Assembly: GCF_004353525.1 (NCBI RefSeq)
Contig: NZ_CP085524.1
Location: 2,390,142 to 2,454,141, forward strand
DNA length: 64,000 bases
Direction: 5' to 3'
Origin: Zhaonella formicivorans
Lineage (GTDB): Bacteria > Bacillota > DUOV01 > Zhaonellaceae
Numbering within the stretch: the stretch's first letter is position 1; each line of letters begins with the position of its first letter. The notes beneath the pieces are model-generated. The model was not told where the DNA came from and did not search any database. It saw nothing but the letters and a program-made list of their open reading frames with translations. Of this stretch, positions 51,168 through 59,413 are shown one piece after another. Position numbers and translations under genes: made by a program.

Positions 51168-52004
51168 TTATGCTGCTTTAAATACCTCCATCGGCACTCT
51201 GTATCCACTGCTTGAATGAGTACGCTGTCGGTTGTAGAAAACCTCGATGTATTCAAATATTGCTAGCTTAGCTTCTAGCCGCGTCTTAAACCGCCTGCCG
51301 TACAACCATTCTTGCTTAAGTTTACCCCAGAATGATTCCATCGGGGCATTATCATAGCAGTTACCTTTGCGGCTCATGCTGCAGATGAATCCATTCTTCT
51401 TCAATATTTCCTGATACTCTTGGCTGGCATATTGGACACCGCGATCAGAATGAACGAGCAGGCCTTCCTTCGCTCCAGTTCTGCCTATGGCCTGATTGAG
51501 GGCTTTTATGACAAGAGACTTTCTCATATGATCGTCCATGGAAAAACCAACAATTGCCCTGCCATGCAGGTCCATTACACCGGCTAGGTACAGCCATCCT
51601 TCATCAGTTGCGACATACGTAATATCGCTCACCCATTTCTGGTTAGGCTTGTCTGCTGTAAACTCGCGGTTTAGCAGATTTTCGGCAACCGGAAGTTTAT
51701 GATTCGAGTTGGTAGTTGCCTTATACTTTTTAACCGTTTTTGATTTGATGCCATTTTTTCTCATTAGCCTATATACGCGGTTTTTGCTTGGTGCACCTTC
51801 ATTCTCTAACTCTTTCGTTATTCGCGGGTAACCGTATATCCCGTGGCTGCGTTTATGGATTTCCTTAATCTTTTCAAGCAGCAGCTCATTCTCTATCTCT
51901 CTATTACTTTTAGGCCTGTTTAAGTAGGCGTAAAAACCGCTCTTGGACACATCAAGAACCTCAGCCATCTTCACAACCCGGAATTCAGAGCGGTGTGCTT
52001 CCAT
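51168..52004 (-). CDS. IS3-family transposase OrfB
   Basis: A 278-residue DDE integrase-type transposase. The HTH_21 start (KSGFYAYLNRPKSNREIEN, HGIYGYPRITKELE) leads to the rve core with DDE residues in WVSDITYVA, LLVHSDRGVQYAS and APMESFWGKLKQE. All catalytic residues appear present, so it may be active. Its in-frame 5' extension (EKPEIERYRFME) lies within orfA in the -1 frame, so it is probably made as an OrfAB fusion through a frameshift at GCGAAAAACC. Confidence 0.92.
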   Translation of the reverse strand: MEAHRSEFRVVKMAEVLDVSKSGFYAYLNRPKSNREIENELLLEKIKEIHKRSHGIYGYPRITKELENEGAPSKNRVYRLMRKNGIKSKTVKKYKATTNSNHKLPVAENLLNREFTADKPNQKWVSDITYVATDEGWLYLAGVMDLHGRAIVGFSMDDHMRKSLVIKALNQAIGRTGAKEGLLVHSDRGVQYASQEYQEILKKNGFICSMSRKGNCYDNAPMESFWGKLKQEWLYGRRFKTRLEAKLAIFEYIEVFYNRQRTHSSSGYRVPMEVFKAA

Positions 52005-52018
52005 AAACCGGTAGCGTT

Positions 52019-52303
52019 CTATTTCAGGTTTTTCGCGAAGTAGGCTGCCGCCTTTTTTAAGATGGCGTTTTCCTCTTTCAAATCCATATTTTCTTTGCGT
52101 AATCTGCGCAGTTCATCGTCAGCTTCATGCAGGTTACCGCTGCCGGAAAATGCCTTATCGCCATGTTTACCGAATTTGCTAATCCAGCCGTGTAGCGTGT
52201 TAGGACTTAAATCTAACTCGCGTGCTACCTCAGCAACCGGCTTCCTGCTTTCCTTTACACGTTTGACAGCCATCAACTTATACTCTTTATCAAAAGTTCT
52301 CAT
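52019..52303 (-). CDS. IS3-family transposase OrfA
   Basis: A 94-residue HTH protein (MRTFDKEYKLMAVKRVKESR, VAEVARELDLSPNTLHGWI) with a leucine-zipper-like coiled coil (LRRLRKENMDLKEENAILKK) that lets it bind the ends of the IS. Start is ATG 52303, with GGAGG 8 bases upstream; a GTG start three codons earlier is possible. It ends in FAKNLK before the frameshift site to OrfB. Confidence 0.88.
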   Translation of the reverse strand: MRTFDKEYKLMAVKRVKESRKPVAEVARELDLSPNTLHGWISKFGKHGDKAFSGSGNLHEADDELRRLRKENMDLKEENAILKKAAAYFAKNLK

Positions 52304-52439
52304 ATGGGGCACCTCCGTGATTTTATTTTATCACACGTTCTGTGTGTCCATAAAATCGCGGTAAGGTCATCAAGGCCCTGCAGAGCAAGTTAAGACGTCA
52401 AATATATACATCATTATAAAGTCCACGGCAGGACAATAT

Positions 52440-53582: not shown

Positions 53583-54824
53583 TCACCAGAGTGCTCTTTG
53601 CCGGAAATAGCCTTGCTGCAGTTCTTCTTTTATTTTCCCCAGGGGAATCCGTTCCTTGACCAGTGAGGTCAGCAAGCCCGCCTGGGCAGTCTTCCCGACC
53701 ATGATGTATCCTGCCAGGCAATTACCTTTAAAAACCAGCCGCCGGTATAAATTTTTGCCCGGGAACAGCTTAACAACTTCGTATCCTTCATTCTGACCTG
53801 CATTGGCCCGACCGGCAGCGATGGCAGACAGGCCAAAAAAATCAGCCGAGTTCATACTGATGGAGCCGCTATAGGATGTGGGCAAACCGGCCATATTTTT
53901 ACCGGCCACTGTACCCTGCTCGGTAGCATTAGGCCAGATGGCGTTAAGTCTACGCTCGCCGGAAATCAAATCAAATCCCCGGGCCACATCCCCTGCAGCG
54001 TAAATATCAGCAAGGTTGGTCTGCATGAACTGGTTTACAACTATGCCTTGGTCCAGCTCAATGCCGCTGCCTTCCAGGAAACCTGTATTCGGCGTGACCC
54101 CTTTCCCAATAATCAGCACATCGGCAGGGAGTTCCTCACCGCTCTTTAGACGGACGCCGCTAACCACATCGCCTTTCATACTGTCTTGCCTAAAAACTAC
54201 TTCAACTACATCCGTATAGTATCTTATCCGGAGACCATGGGCACTCAACTTCTCTGCCACCAGAGCAGCGGCTTCCCTGTCCAACATCTGCGATAAGAGG
54301 TGCCCCGAAGAAACAACACAGGTGACTTCTGTTCCCGCTTTTAATAAAGCGTAGGCAGCCTTAAGGGAGACAAAACCGCCTCCCACCACCACAGCGTGTT
54401 TGCCTGGTCCGACATAAGCCAGGATACCTTTAGCGTCACCCAATGTCCTGAGCCCAAAGACTCCTTGACTATGCATTCCGGGCAGCTTGGGCATAACGGG
54501 AGAAGCCCCGGTGGCAATCAACAGCTTATCGTAACCATATGTTTCCCCGGATGCGGTATATACCTCCCTTTTTCCCGGGTCCACCTTGACTGCTTTCTGC
54601 CCGGCATGGAGATGGAGGTTATAACGGGTATAAAAGTCTGTAGGCCTGATCAACAGTTGTTCCTCCGTCATCTTACCCGTGAGGTAATAAGAAGTCAGAC
54701 ACCGGGCATAGGCCGGGTAGTGTTCTTCACTGATGATATCCACCCGGCCAACCTGGTCCAGCTTACGGATAGCTTCCGCAGCAAAAATTCCGGCTGCGCT
54801 GTTGCCTATAATCACATAGCGCAA
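53583..54824 (-). CDS. NAD(P)/FAD-dependent oxidoreductase of the CODH cassette
   Basis: A 413-residue flavoprotein with an N-terminal FAD-binding motif (YVIIGNSAAGIFAAEAI), a central NAD-binding motif (HAVVVGGGFVSLKAAYAL) and the second FAD contact (TNLADIYAAGDVARG). It resembles NADH:rubredoxin or ferredoxin:NAD oxidoreductases often encoded after cooS and cooF in CO-oxidising clostridia. It would pass electrons from the CooF ferredoxin to NAD(P). I start it at TTG 54824 (MRYVIIG), with GGGGGTGG upstream; the ORF begins at 54839. The gap to cooS is 16 bp. Confidence 0.85.
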   Translation of the reverse strand: MRYVIIGNSAAGIFAAEAIRKLDQVGRVDIISEEHYPAYARCLTSYYLTGKMTEEQLLIRPTDFYTRYNLHLHAGQKAVKVDPGKREVYTASGETYGYDKLLIATGASPVMPKLPGMHSQGVFGLRTLGDAKGILAYVGPGKHAVVVGGGFVSLKAAYALLKAGTEVTCVVSSGHLLSQMLDREAAALVAEKLSAHGLRIRYYTDVVEVVFRQDSMKGDVVSGVRLKSGEELPADVLIIGKGVTPNTGFLEGSGIELDQGIVVNQFMQTNLADIYAAGDVARGFDLISGERRLNAIWPNATEQGTVAGKNMAGLPTSYSGSISMNSADFFGLSAIAAGRANAGQNEGYEVVKLFPGKNLYRRLVFKGNCLAGYIMVGKTAQAGLLTSLVKERIPLGKIKEELQQGYFRQRALW

Positions 54825-54840
54825 TCTTTCCACCCCCAAG

Positions 54841-56751
54841 CTATATGCCCAGGGCTTTGCGTTTTGACTTGATATGCTCGATAAGTCCCTGGGCTGCCTT
54901 GATGGGATCAGTCTCCACGTAGAACCTTCCTCCCAGCAGTTTCTCGGCAGTTTCTCCGGTCAATATTTCAGTGACTTTTTTCCCTCCCAGGACCTGCGGA
55001 ATAACTCCCAAGTGCGTCAAAACACCCAAGGATACTGCCCAGGTACCGATGCTTAAAGCTTTTTCGTGCTGGTGCTCCGGCGCGGATGCTGCAACCGGCA
55101 GGTCTTTAATGGAGACCTTCAGGTAAGCGGCCAGGGCAGTCAACAAATCGCCAATCCTGGAATTATCCACACAACTGCCCATGTGCAGTACCGGCGGCAG
55201 TGGAGCATTGAGCCCGGCAGCATTACCTACCACAGTCAGTACTGCTTTAAGAGTATCACCTGCATATTTTTCACTAGCTTCCGGGAGCATCAGGCCGGCT
55301 TTGGCCAGTGCCTGAGCAGAACATCCGGTGGTCACAACCAAGACGTTATTTTTAATCAGTTCCTTAACCAGATTCACATGGAAGGAATCATGGCGCACCT
55401 TAACGTTGTTGCAGCCCACAGTGCCTACAGCTCCCAGAATATTCCCGTTAACAATATTGTCCACCAATGGTTTCAAAGGATTTTCCGCATCCAGCTTGGA
55501 CAGGGCACCGACAATGGCCTCCACACTGAAACCGCCGAACATCTTTGTTTTCACATCGGGGATATCCACCCGGCTTTTATCCCGGCGGCTGAAGTTTTCA
55601 ATTGCTTTGCGCACAATTTCTTCGGCTTTTCTATCGGCTTCCATCAGGGAGAAAACCACATGCTCCGCACCGGGCATTTTGACTATGGGCATAGTGGTGA
55701 AGATTTTGGTATGATAGCAGGCGGCAACCCTGGACAGTGAGGGCATGATGCACTGTACATCCACAACCATAGCATCCACCGCCCCGGTAATAATGGCCAG
55801 TTCCTGGGCTAAAAAGTTGGAAGCAAGGGGTATACCCTGCCGCATCAGAGTCTCGTTGCCGGTACAGCAAATTCCGGCCAGTTGAATGCCTTTGGCTCCT
55901 TTAGCGACAGCTTCACCCTCAAGCTTTTGGGCCCATTCAACTATTTTTTCCGAAAGCATGGGTTCATGGCCGTGGACTATGATATTGACATGGTCCTCCC
56001 GCAGCACTCCCAGGTTTGCTTCCGTAACCACAGGGGCCGGTGTTCCGAAGAGGATATCCTGGAGATCAGTTGCCAGGTGTAAACCGGCATAGGCATCCAC
56101 CAGCCCCTGCTTTACAGTGGCAAGAATCAGGTTTACCGGGTCTGCGTCCATCCCCATGGTAGTTTGATGCAAAGCTTCCCTGATTTCCCTGTCAGGATTG
56201 CGGGGGAGCACCCCCAGCTTCTCCCAGGTTTCCACCCTTTCTGCAGGAGCAGTAGCCTTCAGCCACTTCATGGGAGTGCCGTGGTGGTTACTAAAATCAC
56301 TGTAAGCTACGTTCACTATTTCTTTCGCAATCTGGTTATCACTCTTACCCGTCGTCTCAAGTCCCAACTTGGCAGCTACTGCCTTTAGCTTGACAGTATC
56401 CTTGATGGTATAAGGGGTGTTTTCCCGCGCAGCTAAGCTTAAGGTTTCTACAGCTTCATAAGCGTGGTCAACATGGGCGGAAGCTCCGGCGGCCACCTGT
56501 CGTAACAGGTTACGAGCTACAATCAGATCAGCATCAGCACCGCAAATTCCATACTCAGGTCCATCGCCAAAGGGGTCGATCCGGCAAGGTCCCTGGTTGC
56601 AGTGGCGGCAGCATATTCCCAGCAGGCCGAAGCCACATTGGGGCTGCTGCGCCTCAAAACGGTCCCAGACTGTTTCTACCTGGTCTCTTTGGGCTTTGCT
56701 AATCATTTGACCCGCTGCAGGGTCCATAGTCTTTCTTAAATAGTCCATCAT
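54841..56751 (-). CDS. cooS: Ni-containing carbon monoxide dehydrogenase catalytic subunit
   Basis: A 636-residue monofunctional CODH, the length of Carboxydothermus CODH-II. Cluster D cysteines C39 and C47 and cluster B cysteines C48, C51, C56 and C70 have the expected spacing (QCGFGLLGICCRHCNQGPC, then YGIC). C-cluster residues appear in HGHEPMLSEKI (His), ICCTGNE, GTVGCNNVKV, TTGCSAQAL and MGSCVDNSRI. It oxidises CO to CO2 with electrons to the ferredoxin encoded by cooF. The ATG at 56751 overlaps the cooF stop (TGATG). A CooA-like regulator gene lies upstream of cooF. Confidence 0.95.
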   Translation of the reverse strand: MMDYLRKTMDPAAGQMISKAQRDQVETVWDRFEAQQPQCGFGLLGICCRHCNQGPCRIDPFGDGPEYGICGADADLIVARNLLRQVAAGASAHVDHAYEAVETLSLAARENTPYTIKDTVKLKAVAAKLGLETTGKSDNQIAKEIVNVAYSDFSNHHGTPMKWLKATAPAERVETWEKLGVLPRNPDREIREALHQTTMGMDADPVNLILATVKQGLVDAYAGLHLATDLQDILFGTPAPVVTEANLGVLREDHVNIIVHGHEPMLSEKIVEWAQKLEGEAVAKGAKGIQLAGICCTGNETLMRQGIPLASNFLAQELAIITGAVDAMVVDVQCIMPSLSRVAACYHTKIFTTMPIVKMPGAEHVVFSLMEADRKAEEIVRKAIENFSRRDKSRVDIPDVKTKMFGGFSVEAIVGALSKLDAENPLKPLVDNIVNGNILGAVGTVGCNNVKVRHDSFHVNLVKELIKNNVLVVTTGCSAQALAKAGLMLPEASEKYAGDTLKAVLTVVGNAAGLNAPLPPVLHMGSCVDNSRIGDLLTALAAYLKVSIKDLPVAASAPEHQHEKALSIGTWAVSLGVLTHLGVIPQVLGGKKVTEILTGETAEKLLGGRFYVETDPIKAAQGLIEHIKSKRKALGI

Positions 56752-57257
56752 CAGGCCTCCTCACCCATAATGAATTTGGACAGAAATTCCTGCTTGACAA
56801 CCTTGTCAAATGCACTGATTTCCATAAACATAATTGCTTTGGTCGGACATGCCTTGACACAAGCCGGTTCATGGCCTTCCGACAGGCACTGGTCACACTT
56901 GATGGCCACCTTCTGCTCTTCACTGGGAACGATAGCTCCATAAGGGCAGACCATCACACACATCCAGCAACCGACACATTTTTCTTCCCTATTCAGCACC
57001 AGTCCTGTCTGATCATCCAGGTGCATGGCCCCTGTCATGCAAGCGTTAACACATTTGGGCTCGCGGCAATGTCTGCACTGGACGGGCAGGTTGATGGACC
57101 TTTCAGCGTTGGTTTCAACCTGTACTCTGCTCACCGCTTTATCGCCGCCTAAAAAAGCGCTGAAGATGTCCTTGCCGGCAGAATGGGCAATAGTGCATGC
57201 CAACTCGCAAGTTTTACAGCCCAAGCACCGGTTTGAACGCACTAAAATCTGTTTCAA
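56751..57257 (-). CDS. cooF: CODH electron-transfer ferredoxin-like protein
   Basis: A 168-residue polyferredoxin with four 4Fe-4S motifs: RCLGCKTCELAC, CRHCREPKCVNACMTGAM, EKCVGCWMCVMVCPYGAI and KCDQCLSEG to ACVKACPTKAI. It takes electrons from the D cluster of CooS. Start is TTG 57257 (MKQILV), with GGGGG 7 bases upstream; a longer ORF to 57377 reads through the CooA-box region and has no ribosome site. The stop overlaps cooS. Confidence 0.92.
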   Translation of the reverse strand: MKQILVRSNRCLGCKTCELACTIAHSAGKDIFSAFLGGDKAVSRVQVETNAERSINLPVQCRHCREPKCVNACMTGAMHLDDQTGLVLNREEKCVGCWMCVMVCPYGAIVPSEEQKVAIKCDQCLSEGHEPACVKACPTKAIMFMEISAFDKVVKQEFLSKFIMGEEA

Positions 57258-57308
57258 CGCATTTCCCCCTTTCCCATGTTCAGAATTTTTCGTGACCTTT
57301 CCAAAGTA

Positions 57309-57351
57309 ATTGTAAAATAAACAAAGCGGGATTACTGTCATCCCGCTGACA
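57309..57351 (-). promoter_or_regulatory. CooA-type box and promoter for cooFS
   Basis: Minus strand TGTCA-GCGGGA-TGACA (57351-57336), a perfect 5-6-5 inverted repeat close to the CooA consensus TGTCA-N6-CGACA. A -10 element TACAAT lies at 57314-57309. If transcription starts 7 bases later, the box centre falls at -41.5, the class II activation position of Crp-family proteins. The box overlaps an 8-bp hairpin (AGCGGGAT/ATCCCGCT, 57347-57325), which could also end transcripts from cooA. Confidence 0.75.
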
Positions 57352-57370
57352 TTAATAATTGTTTTTGTAA

Positions 57371-58012
57371 CTAACACAGTTCCTGCAGTTTTTCCATGCT
57401 TTTAACAATGATCTTCTTTTTCTGCATGCTTATAATTCCATTTTTCTCAAAGCGATTTAAGATGGTGGTTACTGTTTGCCTGGTGCTGCTGATGAGGTAC
57501 GCAAGTTCTTCATGGGTCAGGTCCAGCTTAAATGCTATTCCGTCCCCAGTCGCCGTGCCTTTTTCCCTGGCCATTTTTAATAACAGAGTTGCCAGCCGGG
57601 AGTTAACTTCCTTAAAAGCCAGGTTCAATAAAGCATCATTGGTGTTTTTCAGAATTCTACCCAGGATCCTGATCAAATTCAGGGCCAAATCCGGATTTTG
57701 CAAGACAATTTCTTTGAAATCATTGACCTCGATGTACCAGATTTCTGCCGGTTCCAAAACAGTGGTGGAGGCTTCCGAATGCATACTGTACATATCCCCC
57801 GGCTGGAGAATAGTCACAGTAATTTCTTTGCCCTCGGGCGAAAGATAAGAAACTTTTACCCGCCCCGACCTGACCAAATAAATGTAGTCATGACCCAGCC
57901 CTGGAAAATATATATGCTGTTTCTTGGCAAAACGGCTTTGTCTGAAATATGGTAATAATTTTTCGTTTTCCTCTGGGGACAAGTCTTTGAAAAGTCTGAA
58001 TTCTTTTAACAT
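57371..58012 (-). CDS. cooA: CooA-like Crp/Fnr-family CO sensor
   Basis: A 213-residue Crp/Fnr protein: cyclic-nucleotide-binding-like domain, dimerisation helix (about 110-140) and a C-terminal HTH (EELAYLISSTRQTVTTILNR) close to the CooA recognition helix (SSRQT). The heme-ligand segment GDMYSMHSE aligns with GDMFCMHSG of Rhodospirillum CooA: His78 is present where His77 is the Fe(II) ligand, but Cys75 is replaced by Ser76. It lies directly upstream of cooF and a CooA-type box, and should activate cooFS when CO binds. Start ATG 58012 follows GAGAGGAATGCTCC. Confidence 0.8.
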   Translation of the reverse strand: MLKEFRLFKDLSPEENEKLLPYFRQSRFAKKQHIYFPGLGHDYIYLVRSGRVKVSYLSPEGKEITVTILQPGDMYSMHSEASTTVLEPAEIWYIEVNDFKEIVLQNPDLALNLIRILGRILKNTNDALLNLAFKEVNSRLATLLLKMAREKGTATGDGIAFKLDLTHEELAYLISSTRQTVTTILNRFEKNGIISMQKKKIIVKSMEKLQELC

Positions 58013-58261
58013 GGAGCATTCCTCTCCAAATGTTTTTGTTTTTAAGCTCCTTCAGTTTTACTAAGTATATTAAATATTCGGGCAATAAATCCTGCTTAAG
58101 GCCAAACATAAACAGTAAAATAACTTGGACTTCTTGACCTGTTTTATAGGCCCGGTTTCCTGCAAAAAAAGCGTTGCAAATAAGAAGACCTTAACAACAG
58201 CTGAACTGCGTTAAGATCCTAACGATAATTGTGAAAGGCGAATTCTTTTTGCCTTCATATC
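58013..58261. other. Intergenic region between htrA and cooA
   Basis: No gene. It contains a CGTTA-N6-TAACG dyad (about 58208-58223) and a GAAGGC/GCCTTTC hairpin just after the htrA stop (about 58235-58258), which may end htrA transcripts. The cooA promoter should also be here but was not pinned down. Confidence 0.35.
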
Positions 58262-59413
58262 CTACTGTCGGGGCATTTCACCCAAGGTAACCTGCAAATC
58301 CACCTTTTTGCCCCGCCTGACTACTGTAATGCTCACCCTGTCGCCTACCTTTTTTTGGGACAGCACACCCTGCAGGTCCGAAAAAGTGCGAATTTGTGTC
58401 TGCTCGACAGCGACAATAATATCACCCGCCTCCATGCCGGCTCTCTCCGCGGGGCCTCCCGGATAAACTCCGCCTACATAAATGCCTACGGGCAAATCAT
58501 ACCACTGGGCCATTTGCTCGGAAATTTCCCGGAAGTTATAAATTCCGATAAAAGGCCGGCTTACATAGCCTTTTTCAATCAGCTGCCGGATAATAGGTTT
58601 GGCATCGCTGATGGGAATGGCAAATCCCATCCCTTCAATATCGGTGCGCAGGATCTTGACGCTGTTGATGCCTATAACTTCACCCCGGCTGTTTACCAGT
58701 GCCCCACCGCTATTTCCCGGGTTGATGGCGGCGTCAGTTTGGATCACGTTAAGTGTGACTTCCTCCCCAGGCCTTGCTTCCACTGTAATTTTGCGATTTA
58801 AGGCGCTGATAATGCCAGCCGTAACCGACCCGGCAAACTCTTCCCCCAAAGGATTGCCTATTGCTACAGCCATTTCCCCCACGCGCAGCTTGGTTGAATC
58901 GCCAAGTACAGCTTCCGGCAAATCGGGAGCGGCAATTTGCAACACTGCCAAATCTGTTTGCCTGTCGCCCCCAACCAACTTGGCCGCATAGGAGTTTCCT
59001 CCCTTTAAAGTCACTTCCAGACGCTGGGCGCCCTCTACCACGTGATAATTGGTTACTATGTATCCCTTCTCACGGTCAATTATTACCCCGGAACCCGTCG
59101 ACTCAACAGGACCGGCAAAAAAATCCCGCCCGGAAATATTATTAATCCTGACCACAGTAGGGCCTACCCGCTCAGCAATGGCTACCACAGGTGATTCCCG
59201 GGGGTCAACCTGGGACGATGAGGATTTTTGGGGCGGAGCTTCTTCGCTCAACTCCTGCCTGGGCGCAAGCCCATTGTTTTCAGCTTTGAGAAAGGCCTGT
59301 GCTAAAGTGAGGGCTAAAAGCCCTCCCAGAAAGGCACTTACCAAGACAAGGCCCACTATTCCTAAATAATTAGGCCTTTTCCAGCGGTCATAATCATGCT
59401 CAAAGTAGCTCAT
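58262..59413 (-). CDS. htrA: HtrA/DegP-type membrane-anchored serine protease
   Basis: A 383-residue protease: one N-terminal membrane helix (YLGIVGLVLVSAFLGGLLAL), an acidic/Ser-rich linker, a trypsin-like domain with catalytic His (IVTNYHVVEG), Asp (QTDLAVLQI) and Ser (INPGNSGGALVN), and a C-terminal PDZ domain (FIGIYNFREIS to GDIIVAVEQTQIRTFSDL). It degrades misfolded proteins at the outer face. Start is ATG 59413, with GGTGGTG 7 bases upstream. In Bacillus the yycJ-htrA-rlmH order is conserved; here a CODH cassette separates htrA from rlmH. Confidence 0.93.
   Translation of the reverse strand: MSYFEHDYDRWKRPNYLGIVGLVLVSAFLGGLLALTLAQAFLKAENNGLAPRQELSEEAPPQKSSSSQVDPRESPVVAIAERVGPTVVRINNISGRDFFAGPVESTGSGVIIDREKGYIVTNYHVVEGAQRLEVTLKGGNSYAAKLVGGDRQTDLAVLQIAAPDLPEAVLGDSTKLRVGEMAVAIGNPLGEEFAGSVTAGIISALNRKITVEARPGEEVTLNVIQTDAAINPGNSGGALVNSRGEVIGINSVKILRTDIEGMGFAIPISDAKPIIRQLIEKGYVSRPFIGIYNFREISEQMAQWYDLPVGIYVGGVYPGGPAERAGMEAGDIIVAVEQTQIRTFSDLQGVLSQKKVGDRVSITVVRRGKKVDLQVTLGEMPRQ

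Follow-up and report, generated by a model that had tools for sequence, protein, structure and literature searches.

On the minus strand of the window, i.e. the whole analysed stretch of 64,000 nucleotides of Zhaonella formicivorans DNA, a gene for a CooA-like regulator is followed by cooF, cooS and an oxidoreductase gene (Table 1). The cooA-like gene and cooF are read from the same strand and are separated by 113 nt, and this gap holds a box TGTCA-N6-TGACA, a terminator-type hairpin beginning inside the box, a T-rich tract and a -10 hexamer. The TTG start of cooF was placed by homology, its relatives having ATG or GTG starts. Judging from the context, the oxidoreductase is the probable exit of electrons to NAD(P). 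Elsewhere in the window, two adjoining ORFs at 51168-52312 resemble a transposase pair, which we take to be of the IS3 type.

Table 1. Positions of genes and predicted elements at the cooA-cooF locus (window numbering) and of operator-like sites in three Carboxydothermus loci
Feature	Position	Strand	Basis
cooA-like CRP/FNR regulator, 213 aa	57371..58012	-	similarity to solved CooA, haem His, RQTV helix
predicted CooA operator TGTCAGCGGGATGACA	57336..57351	-	motif match; conserved in 7/7 clade loci
terminator-type hairpin, 8 bp stem, 7 nt loop	57325..57347	-	fold; compensatory pairs across relatives
T-rich tract TTGTTTATTT 3' of hairpin	57315..57324	-	sequence; terminator scan
-10 hexamer TACAAT of cooF promoter	57309..57314	-	conserved at 21 nt (22 in L020) after box
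predicted transcription start (inferred)	57302	-	7 nt past -10; box centre then -41.5
ribosome binding site AGGGGG	57265..57270	-	sequence
cooF, Fe-S electron carrier, TTG start	56751..57257	-	Pfam 4Fe-4S domains, Fer4_11
cooS, Ni-Fe CO dehydrogenase	54841..56751	-	TIGR01702, 748 bits vs cut-off of 478
FAD/NAD(P) oxidoreductase	53583..54839	-	Pyr_redox_2
YGTAA-N6-TTACR sites before cooF-cooS-cooA-2	L086:8663-8678; L087:3447-3462; L088:8776-8791

The hairpin, AGCGGGAT-GACAGTA-ATCCCGCT followed by TTGTTTATTT, takes its 5' arm from operator positions 5-12 and its 3' arm from the bases after the box. Its predicted folding energy of -13.6 kcal/mol (z -3.5) was equalled by 2 of 200 shuffles. With a stable G+C stem and a subsequent T-tract, which in the window is interrupted, it has the features of an intrinsic terminator and is predicted to act as one. 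The box lies 21 nt before TACAAT, giving the class II layout of CooA promoters (TGTCR-N6-YGACR near -41.5 together with a -10), with the start point predicted from the hexamer. The sequence-only reading of this DNA had named the CooA-type box, the -10 placed for class II activation and the participation of the site in a hairpin, and all three were found and are kept across the related loci described below. It had also centred the box at -41.5 of cooF, which holds relative to the assumed start at 57302 and not relative to the cooF start codon, located 86.5 nt from the box centre.

The search for a -35 element 16-18 nt before the conserved -10 gave at best 3/6 matches to TTGACA in all 7 clade loci, as would suit an activator-dependent promoter. 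The promoter scan of the region also returned a sigma-70-like site, ATGACA-16 nt-TATTTT (9/12), whose ATGACA is the second half of the box; an activator-free start may occur there in the window. Sigma-70-like sites numbered 2 in the scanned region vs 2.7 expected, and by eye TATTTT at this spacing is not conserved in L021-L023.

The CooA-like protein

Among solved structures, the closest relatives of the window protein are Carboxydothermus hydrogenoformans CooA-1 entries (2fmy, E 4.9e-41; 2hkx, E 2e-39). Rhodospirillum rubrum CooA (1ft9, E 8.2e-24) ranked below several other CRP/FNR proteins, and the alignment to it begins only at residue 15. None of the NCBIfam CRP/FNR models reached its cut-off with the window protein. 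The haem-ligand His, which is His77 in R. rubrum CooA according to the accessible text of PMC12937710, is kept: SMHS of the window protein aligns with CTHT of ChCooA-1, and the residue is absent in all five non-CooA rows. The same accessible text describes CooA as devoid of the segment equal to residues 72-82 of E. coli CRP (PMC12937710). This segment is missing from the window protein, which is shorter here than paralogues L013 (by 8 residues) and L014 (by 7); these two, the genome's other CRP/FNR matches at E <= 1e-20, have the CRP segment and no His. The recognition helix of the window protein is RQTV, as in proteins with TGTC operators.

Cys75 of R. rubrum CooA is a redox-switching haem ligand. 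Its equivalent is Ser in the window protein; since Ser occupies this place in 26 of 29 CooA rows, the window included, and Cys in 3, Cys75 does not define CooA beyond R. rubrum.

The tree had 33 rows (L029 was left out as a near-copy of L028), and in it the seven proteins of the window clade form one side of a branch with support of 100/99, separate from CooA-1, which includes C. hydrogenoformans L034, and from the RQTL/CooA-2-type rows. By this grouping the window clade has the appearance of a third CooA lineage, one that is patchily distributed: the 2 further genomes from the order to which the window belongs gave no match at E <= 1e-20, and matches at E <= 1e-40 were found in 4 of 9 genomes of family f12 and 1 of 20 of family f29. 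In 9 loci, the stretch of up to 350 nt preceding cooA had no TGTC-N8-GACA box, also when most single changes at the outer and inner half-site bases were allowed; thus there is no sign of classical cooA autoregulation.

Conservation of the element among related loci

The phylum scan of 398 genomes yielded 32 with a match at E <= 1e-32, and 30 of the 37 matches were scanned as loci; a scan of named genomes added 10 loci, Ca. Formimonas warabiya among them. Loci whose 300 nt after cooA are identical to another were dropped (L049, L051-L054, L056, L059-L062), and L057 (26% identity) and L058 (a fragment) were left out of the comparison. The remaining clade loci are the window, L020, L050, L021, L022, L023 and L024. 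They belong to a group of anaerobes, being drawn from three families (f1, f29, f12) and Ca. Formimonas, three of the seven belonging to one genus, and the six relatives are 63-72% identical to the window protein.

In 7/7 clade loci the operator reads TGTCRGCGGG[AC]TGACA, and a hairpin of -12.3 to -18.3 kcal/mol starts inside it and is followed by a T-tract. The -10 is TACAAT in six loci and TAAAAT in one. Identity to the majority is 0.98 in the box, 0.80 in the spacer between box and -10, and 0.88 in the -10, with 0.73 upstream and 0.57 downstream. Since loop length varies, MAFFT alignments of the hairpin misplace the 3' arm, and therefore the pairing was scored from the folds by script. Box position 5 is part of an A-T pair in the window and of a G-C pair in the six other loci; position 11 is part of a C-G pair in L020 and of an A-T pair in the other loci. 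Both changes are compensatory, keeping the RNA pair and the operator consensus at the same time. Position 7 is unpaired in L020.

When the 3' flanks were shuffled 5000 times, the native stem was reached 0 times in the window, L022 and L024, once each in L021 and L023, 27 times in L050 and 191 times in L020. L020 and L050 are the weaker cases with imperfect stems, and the gapless terminator detector did not pick up L050. The same shuffle, applied to seven other CooA loci (L025, L026, L028, L030, L034, L037, L042), reached the stem 1332-4990 times of 5000. No other terminator was detected in the first 320 nt after cooA in the seven clade loci. As these loci share one origin, their conservation counts as one evolutionary event. 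It is this comparison, and not the box alone, which makes the predicted operator-terminator fusion convincing.

Terminators at other CooA loci

The survey for terminators after cooA took in 26 loci. A separate terminator lies upstream of the operator in L025, L030, L035 and L037, and L028 has an upstream terminator plus an operator-type hairpin; none was detected in L042 and L045. L025 and L026 keep the spacing of box and -10 with other hairpins. In L026 promoter and terminator also overlap, at 84-111 nt past the cooA stop codon, where the -10 (TATAAT) straddles the edge of the loop in a terminator hairpin of another kind. In Carboxydothermus L033 and L034 the operator palindrome with its A and T flanks looks like the cooA-1 terminator. 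The shifted hairpin was absent from the seven more distant CooA loci tested. A predicted terminator between cooA and its target is thus recurrent, with the shifted fusion seen only in the window's clade.

Frequency expected by chance

The exact box occurs once in the window; with up to one mismatch there are 3 copies vs 1.32 expected, a number reached in 13 of 100 shuffles. The exact palindrome has 5 copies in the 3.31-Mb genome vs 1 for the reversed control, which by arithmetic gives about 0.0002 boxes expected in the 113-nt gap. The pattern of box plus -10 is not enriched genome-wide (8 matches vs 9 for the control). Because of the five exact copies and this lack of enrichment, the motif match by itself is weak proof; the hairpin by itself is likewise ordinary, as 4 terminator-like sites were found in 56700-58400 vs 1.9 expected. 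By these counts, the excess over chance is position plus conservation in 7/7 clade loci.

On the same figures, 8 vs 9, a genome-wide regulon defined by box plus -10 was rejected; at two of the other matches, L065 and L069, with ORFs judged by eye, no recognisable CO gene lies downstream in the right orientation. By coordinates, each of the four other exact boxes is more than 30 kb from any CODH gene. Five matches in the genome score above the CO dehydrogenase cut-off, near 856, 1187, 1451, 1943 and 2445 kb (G000:C1). TGTCR-N6-YGACA was searched with up to one mismatch in five loci of 14-16 kb, comprising the other four CODH clusters and paralogue L013, and was absent in L015, L017 and L019. 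L015 is a second cooS-cooF-oxidoreductase cluster beside a non-CooA CRP/FNR gene (gene names by eye). L016 has one site, with AACAAT at 21 nt on one strand, and L018 three, one of them with TATTAT at 20 nt on one strand; both were set aside as unconvincing by eye.

Recognition helix and operator type

We compared recognition helices and operators in 34 rows, 29 CooA and 5 non-CooA. A TGTC-type palindrome with a -10 accompanies 16 of the 20 RQTV proteins, and the YGTAA type none of them. Six of eight RQTL proteins (L027, L036, L039, L040, L041, L043) have YGTAA-N6-TTACR, each 21 nt before a -10, and none the TGTC type; the RQTL rows form one clade and so this pairing represents one event. The RQTI protein L035 is accompanied by a TGTC-type site carrying a single mismatch, and neither operator type was found with the five non-CooA rows. 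The misses are L031, L032, L045 and L055 (RQTV) and L038 and L044 (RQTL): L045 has a TGTC box at 289, too close to the end of the scanned stretch, L055 has just 132 nt after cooA, and in L038 cooA follows cooF and cooS, the operator lying before cooF. These pairings suggest a checkable rule by which an RQTV helix is matched to a TGTC operator and an RQTL helix to YGTAA-N6-TTACR.

In three genomes of the C. hydrogenoformans genus, YGTAA-N6-TTACR precedes cooF-cooS-cooA-2 with TATACT at 21 nt (Table 1), i.e. it also stands before the Carboxydothermus CODH-II; the CooA-2 helix is RQTL in two of them and RQRL in one. The YGTAA pattern by itself is not clearly enriched (23 matches in 11 genomes vs 20 for the reversed control), so the case for it rests on position. 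As the accessible text of PMC6557876 has it, Carboxydothermus pertinax possesses CooA-2 only, and its CODH-II is CO-induced without a classical box at the cluster. The YGTAA-N6-TTACR site may explain this induction. We infer that G087 is C. pertinax from its single CooA match, as reported for that species.

Two further observations concern these sequences. At L086:5250-6111 (G049:C1, ~71.2-72.1 kb) a cooA-2 frame has stop codons in its N-terminal part and an open C-terminal part; G049, which carries this broken-up frame, is the genome holding C. hydrogenoformans CooA-1. In the window's genome (G000:C1:2658181-2658223, minus strand) a YGTAA-N6-TTACA palindrome lies 21 nt before TAATAT, on the downstream side of the non-CooA paralogue L013 and ~570 nt from where the match ends; the reversed-control pattern has two matches in this genome.

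Discussion

We propose, with a probability of roughly 0.8, that in these 43 bp a class II promoter activated by CO is fused to cooA's intrinsic terminator. In the absence of CO, polymerase coming out of cooA would transcribe the operator, whose inner part would pair in the RNA with the bases that follow to give a G+C-rich hairpin, and transcription would stop at the U's behind it; cooF, cooS and the oxidoreductase gene would be off, as no good -35 accompanies the conserved -10. With CO, CooA bound to the duplex operator at about -41.5 would recruit polymerase to TACAAT. The new cooF transcript would begin ~23 nt past the hairpin and would hence escape the terminator. Production of the regulator could in this way remain basal, with CODH output tracking CO. 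As predicted by such a fused promoter-terminator, cooS6 of Calderihabitans maritimus, located below cooA with a TGTC-N8-GACA box, is CO-induced with cooA unchanged (PMC7306483, accessible text). The sequence-only reading had suggested that the site may combine activation with attenuation of cooA read-through. A hairpin after cooA agrees with it; regulated attenuation of the cooF mRNA is not implied, because the predicted cooF transcript begins downstream of the hairpin, and this part of the claim is better described as ordinary intrinsic termination of cooA.

The two functions could also be actively coupled: CooA-CO may block polymerase coming from cooA, cooA transcription may clear the operator, or the terminated polymerase may be reused at the -10. 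By the geometry, polymerase that terminates here has to pass over the operator and comes to a halt on the -10 region; the fusion is kept even where there would be space to part the two (64 nt before the box in L023); and polymerase has been described as being recycled on the DNA once it has terminated intrinsically (PMC7957599, accessible text). Simple inheritance of the overlap explains the conservation, however, and other CooA loci (L025, L028, L030, L035, L037) have separate terminators, so we consider coupling unlikely. The same holds for its strict form, a doubtful one, in which CooA occupancy and cooA transcription would exclude each other, CO-CooA stopping the incoming polymerase and starting the next gene. 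If true, the CO switch would limit itself, and polymerase might even be passed on from the terminator to the promoter.

The regulator might sense a non-CO signal, NO or redox, through haem, or act without haem. Its clade is separate from CooA-1 and CooA-2, and the Cys75 equivalent is Ser. HcpR is another CRP/FNR member. It is a haem-dependent bacterial regulator responding to NO (PMC12750200, accessible text). Set against the retained His ligand, absent in the genome's two other CRP/FNR proteins (E <= 1e-20), the CooA-type operator and the CODH target, this explanation appears rather improbable. Still less credible is one cooA-cooF-cooS operon with an attenuator, in which cooFS would be reached by read-through and the box would be a bystander: the common strand, the 113-nt gap and the terminator-like hairpin would suit it, but the box/-10 spacing is kept in 7/7 clade loci and also in L025 and L026, whose hairpins are different, and no signal-linked alternative fold was seen in the stretches folded. 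A random palindrome overlapping a terminator by chance, for which the five exact genome boxes and the 8 vs 9 matches of box plus -10 might speak, is already contradicted by the conservation of the three parts in 7/7 clade loci and by the compensatory pairs, and can practically be dismissed.

If the fused promoter-terminator is accepted, the candidate third CooA lineage gains a defined target, and one stretch of DNA would be conserved both as a protein-binding site and as an RNA fold, its compensatory changes satisfying both. The helix-operator rule points directly to a candidate for the so far unexplained induction of C. pertinax CODH-II by CO.

CooA boxes before CODH genes are already known, and a conserved CooA operator-terminator fusion was not found in the literature searched, most subscription papers lying outside it. 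The R. rubrum coo promoters (cooF, cooM) and the Carboxydocella TGTCRNNNNNNYGACR sites have the same operator consensus and CODH/hydrogenase targets, with no mention of an operator-fused terminator in the accessible text of the two sources (PMC6557876, PMC6085454). In C. maritimus cooA-cooS6, as in the window, cooA is directly upstream of a CODH gene with a TGTC-N8-GACA box; the accessible text does not state its relation to a terminator (PMC7306483). The uptake signal sequences of Neisseria and Pasteurellaceae are likewise short conserved DNA signals doubling as terminator stems (PMC1852404, accessible text), but they are not activator operators and have no promoter attached. In the promoter downstream of C. 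hydrogenoformans cooA-1 (L034), where no other terminator was detected before it, the operator likewise lies in a terminator-like hairpin with a T-tract; there the stem consists of the operator's own two half-sites, whereas in the window the hairpin is shifted to box positions 5-12 and the following bases.
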